NCBI GenBank assembly: GCA_903845365.1
Contig: CAIMXI010000315.1
Coordinates: 1-64,000 of the forward strand
Reading direction: 5' to 3'
Source of the DNA: an uncultured Geobacteraceae bacterium
GTDB taxonomy: Bacteria; Desulfobacterota; Desulfuromonadia; Geobacterales; Pseudopelobacteraceae
DNA length: 64,000 nucleotides
Position 1 is the stretch's first letter. The number at the start of each line of letters is the position of its first letter. The notes under the pieces were generated by a model. The model searched no databases. It was not told the DNA's origin and was given only the letters and a program-made list of their open reading frames with translations. Of this stretch, positions 54,079 to 61,844 are shown in pieces. A program made the position numbers and the translations under genes.

Positions 54079-54531
54079 TTAGCCCCACACATAACGTTCA
54101 TCAAATTTAACATCGTGTTTTTTGAGAAAATGAACATACTCTTCCTGAAACGATTTTGTTCGGTGATGTTCACGTTGTCCCTCAACATACCGCACCGTAT
54201 CGGCAATCTGGGAAAGACTTACCGTGAATGCACCGTATCCATCCTGCCATGCAAACGCCACCATATCGTTATCGTTTTCATGGATCCAACGGGATGATGC
54301 GCCTTTTAGAAGTTGCACCGCTTTACTGACGGAAACGGTAGCCGATAAAGCCAGCAGTATATGTACATGGTCGTCATAACCTCCAATCTTTAAGGCCTTC
54401 ATCCCATTTGTGCGGGCAATGCCGCCGATATATTCCCAAATTCTGATTTCCCTGCCTGGAGTAAGCCACGGCTCACGGTTTTTGGTACTGAACACGATGT
54501 GATAATGCAATGACGTGTATGTATTGGCCAT
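54079..54531 (-). CDS. IS200/RAYT-type Y1 HUH transposase
   Basis: I chose MANTYTSLHYHIVFSTKNRE at 54531, the standard start of IS200-like TnpA; the longer frame adds 15 unrelated residues. The HUH motif is GYDDHVHILLAL (H-V-H) and the catalytic Tyr is likely that of TVRYVEGQREHH. The 150-residue length fits REP-associated tyrosine transposases. It is flanked by two direct copies of a palindrome cluster, the expected layout of a REP/RAYT unit. The domesticated versus mobile state cannot be told. Confidence 0.92.
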   Translation of the reverse strand: MANTYTSLHYHIVFSTKNREPWLTPGREIRIWEYIGGIARTNGMKALKIGGYDDHVHILLALSATVSVSKAVQLLKGASSRWIHENDNDMVAFAWQDGYGAFTVSLSQIADTVRYVEGQREHHRTKSFQEEYVHFLKKHDVKFDERYVWG

Positions 54532-54581
54532 GAGATTTCCCTTTGTCACGCTGGGATGATATTTTGTTTTGCACAACCTGC

Positions 54582-57261: not shown

Positions 57262-57400
57262 TTCTCTTTTATCCGCTTTTATCCCTTTTATCCCTGTTAA
57301 ATAAAAGCTTTTGCTTTTTGACTTCAATGGCTTTTTAACAGGGATAAAGAAAGATAAAGGCGGATGAATCCTTTTAAACTCAAAGATAAATTATCCAGTT
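57262..57400. repeat. Dispersed hairpin repeat, copy A (uninterrupted)
   Basis: TTTATCCCTGTTAAA (57287-57301) and TTTAACAGGGATAAA (57334-57348) form a 15-bp perfect stem, extended by outer ATCCGC/GGCGGAT sequences. The unit ends ...CTCAAAGATAAATTATCCAG. A close copy lies on the other side of the ABC exporter. Confidence 0.85.
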
Positions 57401-57447
57401 GAAAAATTGTTTCAACAGCCTTCAAGCCCTTTACAGGATAAATGACT

Positions 57448-59256
57448 TTATCTGCCGTTGAACTGCAACTGGTGCAGCCGAGCATAAATCCCTCCGACAT
57501 GCAGCAACTCTTCGTGTGTCCCCTCTTCGGCTTTGACACCATTCTGGATGGTGATAATCCGGTCTGCATTCCTGATAGTGGAGAGGCGATGGGCGATTAC
57601 AAGTGAGGTGCGCCCCTGCATCATCCCGGTGATCCCCTCCTGAATCATCTGTTCGGAGGCGCTGTCAATGCTGGCGGTGGCCTCATCAAGCACGAGTATC
57701 TCCGGATCAAAAGCCACAGCCCTGGCAAAAGAAAGCAACTGTTTCTCGCCGACCGAGAAGTTGCTGCCCCGCTCCCGCACCTCTTCGTCATAGCCTCGTG
57801 GAAGCCTTTCGATAAAACGGTCTGCGCCGACCGCCGCTGCAGCCTGGCGGACACGCTGCCGGGCCTGTTCGTTTCCAAGGCTGATGTTAAATTCAATGCT
57901 ACCGGCAAACAGGCAGGGATCCTGAAGTACCACGCCGACCCTGCTGCGGACCTCTGCCAGATCGAGTTCGCTGATGTCGATTCCTTCCAGCAGAATAGTG
58001 CCGCGCTCGATTTCATACAGTCGCGTCAAAAGCCTGGTTATGGTGGTTTTCCCGCCGCCGCTCTCCCCGACGATCGCAATCCGCTCCCCACGCCGGACGG
58101 TGAGGTTGAAACCGCTCAAAATGTCATTTCCGGATTGGTAGGAGAAATAAACATCGCGGAATTCGATTAAAGGTTGAAGGTTGAAGGTTGAAGGTTGAAG
58201 GGAAAGCCCCAAACTCTTTTTCTGACCTTTGTTATCTGACCCTTGATTCTGACTTTCCGGTGAGTCTAACAAGGCAAAAATCCTCTCCAGCGCCGCCATC
58301 GCGCCCTGCATGACCGAATACTTTGCTGAGAGGTCGCGGATCGGGCCGAAGAATTTTTCTATATACTGAATGAAGGCGACCAGAACACCGAAGGTCAGCG
58401 CCCCTTTCAAGATCTCGCCGCCACCGTACCAGATGATCAGAGCTACCGCAATTGATGAGAGCGCCTCAACCATGGCATACAGTGACGCATCCCAAAAGAT
58501 GACCGGCATATTGGCGTCACGATACGATGCGTTCAGCAGGCTAAAACGACGCTCTTCATCGCGTTCGCGGTTAAAGATCTGGATGATACTGATGCCGGAA
58601 ATACATTCGTTGAGGAAGGAGTTCATGGTGCCGAGGCGCGCCCGTACCTCCCTGAATGATTTTCTCATGCGGCGCCTGAAGGTGTAGGCGACATATAGCA
58701 GCACCGGCAGAACGGAAAAGGTTACCAGTGACAGCTTAAGATTCATCCAGAGCATGACGGAGATAATGCCGATTAACAGCAGAATGTCGCCGATGATCGT
58801 GATGATGCCGGAAGCAAACATTTCCCCCAAAACTTCGATATCGCTGGTCAGCCTGGTAACCGCACTCCCAGTCGGCACTTTGTCGAACCAGGTGACAGGG
58901 AGATGCATGACGTGGCGGTACAACTCCGCGCGCATGTCAGACATGACCCGCTGCCCGACGGACTGCAGCAGATAAACTTCCAGAAAAGAGAGGAGCGATT
59001 CGGCGATCAGGATGCCGAGAAAACCGAGTGCGATTATTTCAAGCCCGGCGAGCTTTCCGGAGATAATATGGCTGTCAATGGCAATCTTTATGACCCATGG
59101 CTGCACAAGTCGGCAGGCGGCGACAAGCGGCAGTATCAGCACAACAACAATGACGGCAAAGCGGTAGGGTAACACATAACTAGCAAAGCGCCGCAATAGT
59201 TGGGTGTCGTAGGCTTTCCCGGCTATTTCTTCTTCGTAGATTCCGCTTTGGTGCAT
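57448..59256 (-). CDS. ABC exporter, MsbA-like (fused TMD-NBD)
   Basis: The 602-residue half-transporter has six transmembrane helices (N-terminal about 330 residues) and a nucleotide-binding domain with Walker A VGESGGGKTTI, signature FSVGEKQLL, Walker B EILVLDEATASID and the H-loop IAHRLS. It works as a homodimer or heterodimer exporting lipids or drugs. The linker (about residues 335-370) holds extra sequence, SQNQGSDNKGQKKSLGLS and on, built from a heptamer repeat (AGGTTGA x4) not expected in the family. It is flanked by copies of a dispersed repeat. The partner and substrate are unknown. Confidence 0.93.
   Translation of the reverse strand: MHQSGIYEEEIAGKAYDTQLLRRFASYVLPYRFAVIVVVLILPLVAACRLVQPWVIKIAIDSHIISGKLAGLEIIALGFLGILIAESLLSFLEVYLLQSVGQRVMSDMRAELYRHVMHLPVTWFDKVPTGSAVTRLTSDIEVLGEMFASGIITIIGDILLLIGIISVMLWMNLKLSLVTFSVLPVLLYVAYTFRRRMRKSFREVRARLGTMNSFLNECISGISIIQIFNRERDEERRFSLLNASYRDANMPVIFWDASLYAMVEALSSIAVALIIWYGGGEILKGALTFGVLVAFIQYIEKFFGPIRDLSAKYSVMQGAMAALERIFALLDSPESQNQGSDNKGQKKSLGLSLQPSTFNLQPLIEFRDVYFSYQSGNDILSGFNLTVRRGERIAIVGESGGGKTTITRLLTRLYEIERGTILLEGIDISELDLAEVRSRVGVVLQDPCLFAGSIEFNISLGNEQARQRVRQAAAAVGADRFIERLPRGYDEEVRERGSNFSVGEKQLLSFARAVAFDPEILVLDEATASIDSASEQMIQEGITGMMQGRTSLVIAHRLSTIRNADRIITIQNGVKAEEGTHEELLHVGGIYARLHQLQFNGR
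58171..58198. repeat. Heptamer tandem repeat AGGTTGA x4 in ABC exporter gene
   Basis: Four head-to-tail copies of AGGTTGA sit in the coding linker between the transmembrane and ATPase domains. Since 7 is not a multiple of 3, gain or loss of a copy would shift the frame before the ATPase domain. Confidence 0.9.
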
Positions 59257-59275: not shown

Positions 59276-59600
59276 GATATCCGCTTTTATCCGCCTTTAT
59301 CCCTTTTATCCCTGTAAATAAAAGGTTTTACTTTTAACTTCAAAGGCTTTTTAACAGGGATAAAGAAAGATAAAGGCGGATGAAACCTTTTAAACTCAAA
59401 GATAAACCTAAAAAAGCATTTGAAACACGGAGCAACGGAGTAAAAACAAAGAAGAATCTTCTTGAAAAAGCCTTTTTGAGACTCACCTTTATGGTGAATG
59501 CAGTTTCTCATGTAAGATATTGATTTCTCTGTTGCTCCGTTGCTCCGTTGCTCCGTGTTATTCGAACTGCCATTTCTAGGATAAATTATCCAGTTGAAAA
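59276..59600. repeat. Dispersed hairpin repeat, copy B, interrupted
   Basis: The same repeat as copy A, in the same orientation: ATCCGCCTTTATCCC, ...TTTAACAGGGATAAA (59349-59363), AAAGGCGGAT and CTCAAAGATAAA, then, after an insert, GATAAATTATCCAG. It lies between the ABC exporter start and the priA end. Confidence 0.85.
59407..59579. mobile_element. Small insertion element inside repeat copy B
   Basis: Relative to copy A, 173 extra bases are present between a duplicated GATAAA (59401-59406 and 59580-59585). The insert contains a perfect 17-bp inverted pair, AACACGGAGCAACGGAG (59424-59440) and its complement (59543-59559), the latter in a short tandem CTCCGTTG array. No ORF is inside. Copy A is the matching empty site. 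Confidence 0.75.
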
Positions 59601-59606
59601 TCGGGT

Positions 59607-61844
59607 TTACATCATATCAACCGGATCAATATCAACAGAAATACGCACTGCTGATACTACGGTCGCACGCTGCCGCCAGAAGGAGAGCAGCCTGTGAAGA
59701 TCGCTCCGGCTGGAACCTTTCAGCAGTATTTGGCGGCGAAAACGATTGCGGAGACGATAAAGTGGCGAGGGGGCGGGGCCGAGGATTTCAACCCGGACTC
59801 TCAGCTCGGCTTTAAGGCGCATCAGCAAGCTGGCCGCCATGTCAGCCTGCTCGGTTACAGCCTGTTCCGATAGCCCGGAGATGGCAAATGCCGCCAGAAA
59901 CGCAAAGGGTGGGTAGCCGGCTTCACTACGAAACTCCAGCTCCTGCTGATAAAATCCGGCGGCATCATGTTCGGCAGCAGATCGTATGGCGTAATGTTCG
60001 GTATCGAACGCCTGCACGACGACTCTTCCCGGATTCTCTCCCCGTCCGGCTCGTCCGATGACCTGGGACAACAGTTGAAAGGTACGTTCAGCAGCCCTGA
60101 AATCAGGCATACCGAGACTGGCTTCTGCGTTCACTACCCCGACCAGCGTTACTTCAGGAAAGTCGTGCCCTTTGGCAATCATCTGGGTGCCGACAAGAAC
60201 GTCGGCGCTGCCATCGTTCATGCGAAACAGCAGGCGCTCGTGGCTCCCTTTGCCGGAGGTCGTATCACTGTCCATCCTGAGAATACGGGCTGTCGGCAGC
60301 AACTCTTTCAGGTCATGTTCCAGTTTTTCGGTTCCTGCTCCCAATTCACTAAGTGTCGTTCCTGAGCATGCCGGACAGGTGCCGGGAGCCGGAACGGCAT
60401 AGTCACAGTAGTGGCAGAGGCTCTCTCCCCGCTGGCGGTGATAGGTCAGGGTTACGGAACAATTTGGGCAGGTCAACGGCTTTCCGCAGTCGGTACAGAC
60501 AAGAAACGTGGCAAAGCCGCGCCGGTTGAGAAAAACAATAGCCTGTCGCCTCTGCTCAAATGTTTCAGTCAGTTTTGCCGACAGGGATGTCGAGATGGTC
60601 TCTTTACTCCCTTTCATCGCCACCAGTTCAACAAGAGGCATCGGTCTCCCTGCAACCCGTTCAGGCAATGAGAGCAGTGTCAGTCGTCCTTCTTGAGCCG
60701 CGTGAACAGTGGTAACCAATGGCGTCGCGGAGCCAAGGACAACGGCGGCCTGCTCCATTCTTCCCCGAACCAGCGCCAGATCTCGGGCGTTGTAGCGTAA
60801 CCCGTCCGACTGTTTAAAGGAAGCTTCATGCTCTTCATCGACGATGATAATGCCGATCTTCTCCATCGGAGCAAAAATTGCCGAGCGCGCTCCGATGACT
60901 ATTCTCGCCAACCCCCGCCGGATCCGACGCCACTCGTCATAGCGTTCCCCATCGGAGAGCCCGCTGTGCAAGATGGCAATACCACCACCAAATCGGGCTT
61001 GAAAACGTCCGGTCAACTGTGGTGTTAGAGCAATTTCCGGAACCAGCACCAGGGCATTTCTGCCGAGTTCAAGCGCATGCGAGATCGACTGAAGGTAGAC
61101 CTCGGTTTTGCCGCTTCCGGTCACACCATAGAGTAAAAACGGGGTAAAAATCTTGCCGTCAAGACAATCTGAAATAGCGTCCAAGGCCGCTTTTTGGTGT
61201 GTTTGCAAAATTCGTGGTTCATCACGCGCTGCCGGGTGGTCTTTAAAAGGGTCGCGGTACACTTCGCGTTCCTCTACCCTGCTGAGCCCAAGCTCTGTTA
61301 ATCGCTTGAGTTGTGGTGCGCAGGCACCGAAGCGCTTGCGAAGATCCGCAGCGGAAATATCTCCGGAGTCGCGAATTACGGCCAGTATTTCGAGCGCTTT
61401 CGGACTTGGCTGTCGGAGGGGGGGAGTCGTAGAGCCTGGCAGGTAGAATTTTTCTCGCAGAGCCTTTTTCCCTCCGGTCAATCTCCCCTGTTCACTGTCA
61501 ACCACTTTGAGGATCTGAACATTAATGCCCGACGGAAGTGCTGTGCGTATGACTTCACCGAGCGGATGCTGGTAGTAGGTTGCGGTCCAGCGGAAAAACT
61601 CAAGCTCCTTCGCCGTCCAGAGCGGTTCATTGTCCAGCACGGTAATTATCTCTTTTATATTGGCGATTGAGGATTCGGTAACGGATCCTAAAATGTAACC
61701 GGTCAGTTTCCGGTTTCCGAATGGAACCAGAGCCCGTCGACCGGTAAGAGCCTGTTCAAGTAAGGTTTCAGGAACGAGATAATGGAAGGTTTTTTCCAGA
61801 TAGAGCGGAATTGCGACTTCAATGATATGCAGAGGGTCAGTCAT
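59607..61844 (-). CDS. priA: Primosomal protein N' (replication restart helicase PriA)
   Basis: I chose MTDPLHIIEVAIP at 61844; the longer frame runs into the upstream gene. The 745-residue helicase has the N-terminal 3'-end-binding domain, Walker A YGVTGSGKTEVYL, the DEEH box (IIVDEEHEAS) and the zinc-binding cysteine cluster (CTDCGKPLTCPNC, CHYC and CPAC). It reloads the replisome at collapsed forks. It is probably co-transcribed with nspC and the small gene upstream. Confidence 0.96.
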   Translation of the reverse strand: MTDPLHIIEVAIPLYLEKTFHYLVPETLLEQALTGRRALVPFGNRKLTGYILGSVTESSIANIKEIITVLDNEPLWTAKELEFFRWTATYYQHPLGEVIRTALPSGINVQILKVVDSEQGRLTGGKKALREKFYLPGSTTPPLRQPSPKALEILAVIRDSGDISAADLRKRFGACAPQLKRLTELGLSRVEEREVYRDPFKDHPAARDEPRILQTHQKAALDAISDCLDGKIFTPFLLYGVTGSGKTEVYLQSISHALELGRNALVLVPEIALTPQLTGRFQARFGGGIAILHSGLSDGERYDEWRRIRRGLARIVIGARSAIFAPMEKIGIIIVDEEHEASFKQSDGLRYNARDLALVRGRMEQAAVVLGSATPLVTTVHAAQEGRLTLLSLPERVAGRPMPLVELVAMKGSKETISTSLSAKLTETFEQRRQAIVFLNRRGFATFLVCTDCGKPLTCPNCSVTLTYHRQRGESLCHYCDYAVPAPGTCPACSGTTLSELGAGTEKLEHDLKELLPTARILRMDSDTTSGKGSHERLLFRMNDGSADVLVGTQMIAKGHDFPEVTLVGVVNAEASLGMPDFRAAERTFQLLSQVIGRAGRGENPGRVVVQAFDTEHYAIRSAAEHDAAGFYQQELEFRSEAGYPPFAFLAAFAISGLSEQAVTEQADMAASLLMRLKAELRVRVEILGPAPSPLYRLRNRFRRQILLKGSSRSDLHRLLSFWRQRATVVSAVRISVDIDPVDMM

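Follow-up and report, generated by a model that had tools for sequence, protein, structure and literature searches.

A 174-bp miniature element with IS1380-like ends in an uncultured Geobacteraceae genome

The stretch of DNA analysed here (64,000 nucleotides from an uncultured Geobacteraceae bacterium; hereafter the window) contains two copies of a dispersed host repeat: an uninterrupted copy A, and a copy B that is broken by an insert. Two questions arise at this locus: what the insert is, and what moved it there. The empty site, CTCAAAGATAAATTATCC, occurs uninterrupted once in the window (57379-57396, in the copy A core at 57262-57405, + strand) and is absent from shuffled sequence. The two copies are related by a 75-nt direct repeat (96%; 57316-57390 and 59332-59406) and by a further 26-nt direct repeat (92%; 57380-57405 and 59575-59600). 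Copy B, with the element included, spans 59279-59599 and is truncated on both sides. Its left part (59279-59406, + strand), which carries TTTTATCCG units, belongs to a dispersed family distinct from that of the insert, and its right part (59581-59599, + strand), ATAAATTATCCAGTTGAAA, belongs to the 26-nt direct repeat.

The initial annotation described 173 bp inserted at a duplicated GATAAA. The interruption of copy B is real and sits where it was placed, and the target is indeed duplicated, but the insert measures 174 bp and the duplication is the 5-bp ATAAA. A 6-bp duplication, which counts an ambiguous G in GATAAA, is ruled out because this last G belongs to the CCTA...TAGG ends of the element; other copies likewise end in ...TAGG and duplicate 5 bp. 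Delimited by the empty copy A and by boundaries common to other copies, the element body occupies 59407-59580 (+ strand), reads CCTAAAAAAG...TTTCTAGG and contains no transposase gene. It lies between copies of ATAAA at 59402-59406 and 59581-59585 (both + strand). The proposal that the empty copy defines the ends of an insertion with a target duplication is therefore supported: the same ends recur in further copies, many of them with 5-bp direct repeats, and an autonomous element with matching ends exists.

The empty site lies in a paralogous copy of the repeat and is not the pre-insertion locus itself; it is the other host-repeat copies that make its use safe. Across 28 loci compared, AAAGATAAATTATCC-type sequence without an insert is found in eight copies, A included (L061-L066, L068 and L069); at least three more (L074, L079 and L090) have an altered site and no insert; and B alone is filled. 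The uninterrupted form is therefore ancestral. The reverse history, in which copy B is ancestral and copy A lost its insert by precise excision, draws on the fact that DDE elements sometimes excise. It is very improbable, as the seven further copies that run across the site without an insert make the uninterrupted form the consensus, and copy A shows no deletion scar.

The host-repeat family yields at least 51 BLAST matches to the copy A core in the genome of origin (40 scored, making the count a lower bound). Its fullest copies align over about 320 bp, start with CCCAACCCGGACGAGCCGGAACC and carry TTTTATCCG units; the sole Rfam matches were to microRNAs, scored below gathering thresholds and were confined to the host-repeat hairpin. 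Elsewhere in the genome, on contig C442 (L050), the same element family has inserted a second time into this host family, at a different place. The element in copy B is flanked by priA and by a gene for an MsbA-like ABC transporter and interrupts neither: the priA reading frame ends at 59607 (NCBIfam TIGR00595, above cut-off), and the transporter frame starts at 59256 (best match TIGR02203, below cut-off). Two other repeats were seen in the window: a perfect AAGGTTG heptamer of 4.6 copies at 58170-58201, within the transporter frame (57448-59256) and a possible slippage site; and a 126-bp repeat of 14.4 copies at 20-1828, which we take to be TPR-like.

The architecture of the insert is that of a hairpin held between inverted ends. 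The left terminal inverted repeat (59407-59422, + strand) is CCTAAAAAAGCATTTG, which in many copies reads CCTAGAAAAAGCATTTG, and the right one (59565-59580, + strand) is AACTGCCATTTCTAGG. Inside them, the reported inverted pair is present as 20 nt at 59424-59443 and 59540-59559, 95% complementary. Its left arm (59424-59443, + strand) consists of CACGGAG/CAACGGAG units; the right arm (59527-59559, + strand) contains the unit array that had also been described, 3.8 copies of the 8-bp CTCCGTTG at 59527-59556, and ends in CTCCGTGTT. Relative to shuffled sequence, the insert folds far beyond chance (z -6.0 as DNA; z -8.5 as RNA on the + strand). No open reading frame of 100 aa or more in the window overlaps it.

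Further copies were sought in the genome of origin (G000; 5.51 Mb in 511 contigs). With the insert as query, at least 65 BLAST matches were obtained, a lower bound (40 of 61 candidates scored). Pattern searches gave 32 left ends at one mismatch or fewer, of which one (C270) proved unrelated on reading, leaving about 31; right ends gave 49 matches at two mismatches or fewer, against 16 for the reversed pattern. The terminal inverted repeats, CCTA[G]AAAAAGCATTT and AACTGCCGTTTTTAGG, are imperfect. Several contigs of the assembly terminate within these elements, and copy numbers there are likely underestimates. Duplications were assessed at 34 hand-picked loci of this genome, 29 of them two-ended; the remaining five (L003, L008, L010, L051 and L095) lacked a two-ended match and were left out of the count. 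The element measures 162-199 bp in 27 of the 29, and 328 and 344 bp in the other two.

Exact 5-bp direct repeats flank the called ends in 14 of the 29 two-ended copies, as compared to 37 of 812 mispaired flanks. When the ends are allowed to shift by up to 2 bp, the counts become 19 of 29 and 97 of 812 (12%), leaving 10 copies that have no exact 5-bp repeat even so. In all 14 exact repeats the second base is T and the fourth is A, a target rule of NTNAN. Among 11 two-ended copies in relatives, exact 5-bp repeats flank four. Of 22 copies, 7 have an empty site crossed by a stop-to-stop frame of at least 150 aa, whereas 83% of 440 points drawn at random from these flanks lie in such a frame; insertions therefore fall mostly outside genes. 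At G000:C253:2545-2818 (L006, L116), right ends of two different subfamilies stand in tandem behind one left end, which suggests a fusion of copies.

The 5-bp repeats bear on a rival reading, namely a palindrome of REP/REPIN type that a Y1 (RAYT) transposase disperses. The insert is palindromic and intergenic, and a Y1 transposase frame (PF01797, 101 bits) lies 5 kb away at 54079-54576 (- strand). However, REP/RAYT elements are Y1-linked palindromes, Y1 transposases are not known to make target duplications, and 5-bp repeats are in clear excess at the element copies. The Y1 frame is moreover flanked by its own, different palindromes: GGTAGCCCGGCGTTTCAACGCCGGG-type sequences stand on both sides, as in a RAYT-like gene with its REPs. 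Together, the 5-bp repeats and these other palindromes rule out a RAYT/REP origin for practical purposes, and the chance that it is correct is very small.

The genome of origin has five types of interior between the shared ends: CAACGGAG (that of the window), AAACGGAG/AACACGGAG, CAACAGAG, GCACAAAAA and CACGAAATA, the last seen in one copy. Copies of the first four types, in this order, have a median identity to one another of 0.80, 0.97, 0.89 and 0.93 (n = 3, 7, 5 and 6); the value of 0.97 suggests that the AAACGGAG/AACACGGAG type spread recently. This is the unusual feature of the family: the ends are constant, and the short-unit arrays between them differ by subfamily, each forming a complementary hairpin. 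One copy of each type gave RNA z of -4.9 to -10.8 on both strands against dinucleotide shuffles, and local arm scores show most of the right arm to be complementary to the left in the copies examined.

The arms also allow the idea of concerted evolution, in which arms are matched element by element, to be assessed. In 22 chosen copies, from which nested inserts and degraded ends were left out except for L004 and L006, the mean arm score is 22.2 within an element, 23.3 with a copy of the same subfamily and 11.5 with other subfamilies. The corresponding values over 51 rows, duplicates included, are 18.9, 19.8 and 13.1. Complementarity is thus kept at the level of the subfamily only; it is no tighter within single elements, and there is therefore no sign of element-by-element copying between arms. 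Separately, a GTAG-type palindrome of about 22 bp (around AAAAGTAGGYGCCTC) is nested in the unit array of four copies of 197-199 bp (L002, L041, L050 and L126). It looks like a REP-like insert flanked by a short duplication, which in L002 is GCAAC.

Identifying what moves the family requires a transposase gene with the same ends. A search of 98 genomes with PF13701 (DDE_Tnp_1_4) found matches in 26, above the family cut-off in 13, and at least two of the genes are enclosed by matching ends. One of these, L169, is complete: 1615 bp with a 502-aa reading frame, ends CCTAAAAACGGCTATTG...CAACCGCCGTTTTTAGG and flanking repeats TTTAA. The other, L187, is 1614 bp with ends CCTAAAAACGGCAGTTG and CAACTGCCGTTTTTAGG, one flank being lost at the contig start. 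At three further loci (L167, L168 and L172), just one side carries such an end. The proteins encoded by L169, L187 and L167, each of 502 aa, score 80-89 bits against the PF13701 cut-off of 34.7 (L169, 80 bits). Against the NCBI IS1380 model they score 154-163 bits, which is below its cut-off of 180 yet the best of all models listed; the partner is therefore called IS1380-like, a divergent branch. Aligned with IS1247, the partner proteins keep the D, D and E positions of DDE transposases, on our own residue assignment.

In the genome of origin, the partner is represented by its ends. A search with the whole of L169 retrieved none of the miniature copies, its sole matches being four end fragments of the IS: two left ends (C475 and C10) and two right ends (C369 and C328), 88-92% identical and all at contig ends. 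The right ends continue into what looks like the last part of a protein; Pfam returned nothing for a 42-aa IS fragment. No full-length partner was found in this assembly, where its ends stand at contig breaks, as would be expected if the body of the element were a collapsed repeat. C475 and C369 both border the element with CTTAT, and the repeats bordering C10 (TTTAT) and C328 (TTTAA) are mismatched.

The ends themselves link the two kinds of element. The right end of C369 is AACTGCCGTTTTTAGG, 16 bp, letter for letter the commonest right end of the miniature copies, which is thus identical to the right end of IS1380-like elements. At the left end, the miniature copies differ from the IS of the same genome at 5 of 17 positions; an element in a Nitrospirae MAG (L200) has CCTAGAAAAAGCAGTTG and AACTGCCGTTTTTAGG, close to both miniature ends. 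The IS1380 family makes direct repeats of 4-5 bp. Here, CC...GG ends with direct repeats are found in L169, L201, L202, L241 and the C475/C369 pair, and the repeats of these five IS copies (TTTAA, TTCAA, TTAAA, TTAAA and CTTAT) all fit NTNAN. Matching repeats are absent from L200, L203, an IS1247 copy (L240) and the C10/C328 ends.

A different DDE transposase, for example of another IS4-like family, could share CC...GG ends and 5-bp repeats with the element by chance. The partner protein does fall below the NCBI IS1380 cut-off and gives weak scores to the IS1634, IS701 and IS4 models, and the genome encodes a second, distinct IS1380 transposase (C439, 312 bits). No matching ends were found around C439, which rules it out as the partner, and over 16 bp the right end of the miniature copies matches exactly that of the genome's own IS1380-like element. 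Such a coincidence is accordingly judged improbable.

Taken in aggregate, the observations make it highly probable that the insert is a type II MITE moved in trans by a transposase of IS1380-like type whose gene lies elsewhere in the genome. This is the best account because the 16-bp right end, the 5-bp duplication and the NTNAN target are all common to the two elements. The insert is below 500 bp, has no transposase coding, carries terminal inverted repeats, is flanked by a target duplication and resembles the IS at its ends only. Movement by this transposase would involve: binding of the CCTA.../...TAGG ends by the IS1380-like DDE enzyme; excision or copying of the miniature element; joining to target DNA cut with a 5-bp stagger at an AT-rich NTNAN sequence; and gap repair at this cut, giving the 5-bp repeats. 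In the window, the element landed in copy B, a repeat that is older than the insertion and truncated. The short-unit arrays enclosed by the ends would be cargo, kept as a hairpin and dispensable to the transposase.

Both elements extend beyond this genome. Matches to the insert occur in 39 of the 98 genomes searched, its own included, some of them weak (E near 1e-4); with at most eight matches scored per genome, the counts in relatives are lower bounds. Across the same 98 genomes, MITE matches were found in 10 of the 15 with an IS of the same clade and in 29 of the 83 without (p = 0.04), a weak co-occurrence. Restricted to strong MITE matches, the counts are 6 of 15 and 14 of 83 (p = 0.07), and MITE matches are absent from five of the 15 genomes in which a same-clade IS was matched. 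Of the 395 genomes in a phylum sample, the genome of origin alone contained an exact 22-base pattern of the left end; the pattern is strict, and the sample contains only one other genome of the genus.

A transposase protein search of species genomes returned 17 loci, from uncultured Geobacteraceae MAGs, Desulfocapsa, Desulfobulbus, Nitrospirae, Verrucomicrobia and others. Going by contig number and match position, the Geobacteraceae MAGs appear identical with records G020 and G032 from the window's genus. Element ends reading CC[T/C][A/G][A/G]AAA...GCAGTTG with AACTGCCGTTTTTAGG occur in Geobacteraceae, Nitrospirae and Desulfobulbus, and the right end also in Desulfocapsa; an element on a Polaromonas plasmid has CCTATTTTCGGCAGTTA and TAACTGCCGTTTCTAGG with TTAAA repeats. 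A right-end search of ten genomes (nine behind the transposase loci, and the genome of origin) gave matches in eight. Among the 16 right-end loci read, from five genomes of which four are outside Geobacteraceae, no miniature copy was seen outside Geobacteraceae, where the loci are IS copies or ends standing alone. Positions 1-1011 of L198, from a MAG that bears the label Verrucomicrobiales, encode a transposase 98% identical to that of L169, which reflects either recent transfer or a mis-binned contig.

The partner resembles the IS1380 family (IS1247, ISEcp1, ISPme1) in its DDE_Tnp_1_4 transposase, CC...GG ends, length of about 1.6 kb and 5-bp repeats; IS1247 is given as 1672 bp with IR 16/13 and DR 5 in the accessible text of PMC3281130. 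The miniature element differs from the family in that it has no transposase. The 502-aa partner protein shares 24.7-26.9% identity with the listed plasmid members annotated as IS1380, and its nearest plasmid relative, from Polaromonas, 48.7%. IS1380 elements mobilise neighbouring DNA as transposable modules (TMos), apparently through misrecognised terminal structures, according to the excerpted text of PMC9330008; as described there, TMos include the IS, whereas the miniature elements do not. Such misrecognition offers a plausible route to elements with common ends and unrelated interiors. A broader proposal is that the family is modular, with IS1380-like ends repeatedly enclosing unrelated arrays (CAACGGAG, AACACGGAG, CAACAGAG, GCACAAAAA and CACGAAATA), and that hairpin MITEs have a general birth route, in which an IS1380 transposase captures surrogate ends, the array then grows and the arms are copied. 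We consider this doubtful; if true, it would make similar short-unit palindromes in other bacteria explicable.

Within the listings and excerpts covered of the open-licence literature, no description of an IS1380-derived MITE was found, and that literature yielded no paper for four literal repeat strings of the element. Its sources do describe several related situations: many multicopy sequences in the G. metallireducens genome (PMC2700814, in part), MITEs without a matching IS in Anabaena sp. 90 (PMC3542288, in part) and Tn3-derived miniature elements in Pseudomonas (PMC4133298, in part). MITEPye1 of Paracoccus yeei is alike in being tied to an IS family by end similarity, intergenic and built as a long stem-loop, but its partner is IS1182, not IS1380 (from the available portion of PMC11578231).

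Among the MITEs encountered, the nearest by host is Chunjie, a type II MITE of Geobacter uraniireducens with a length of 178-235 bp and 37 further copies, as the consulted portion of the review PMC10969869 reports. Compared by that description only, Chunjie is like the miniature element in size, terminal repeats, direct repeats and intergenic position, and is set apart by the arms of the latter, whose short tandem units differ between subfamilies. The work connects an intergenic repeat that had no name with a known family of transposases; its ends, the length of its duplication and its target rule can each be tested, and the swapped arrays under constant ends make the origin of hairpin interiors a tractable question. 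The same portion of the review gives stem-loops, and ends in common with an IS, as features of MITEs in general (PMC10969869). As type II MITEs are presented there, the element fits the class: an ordinary kind of selfish element, in which the swappable hairpin is the unusual part.
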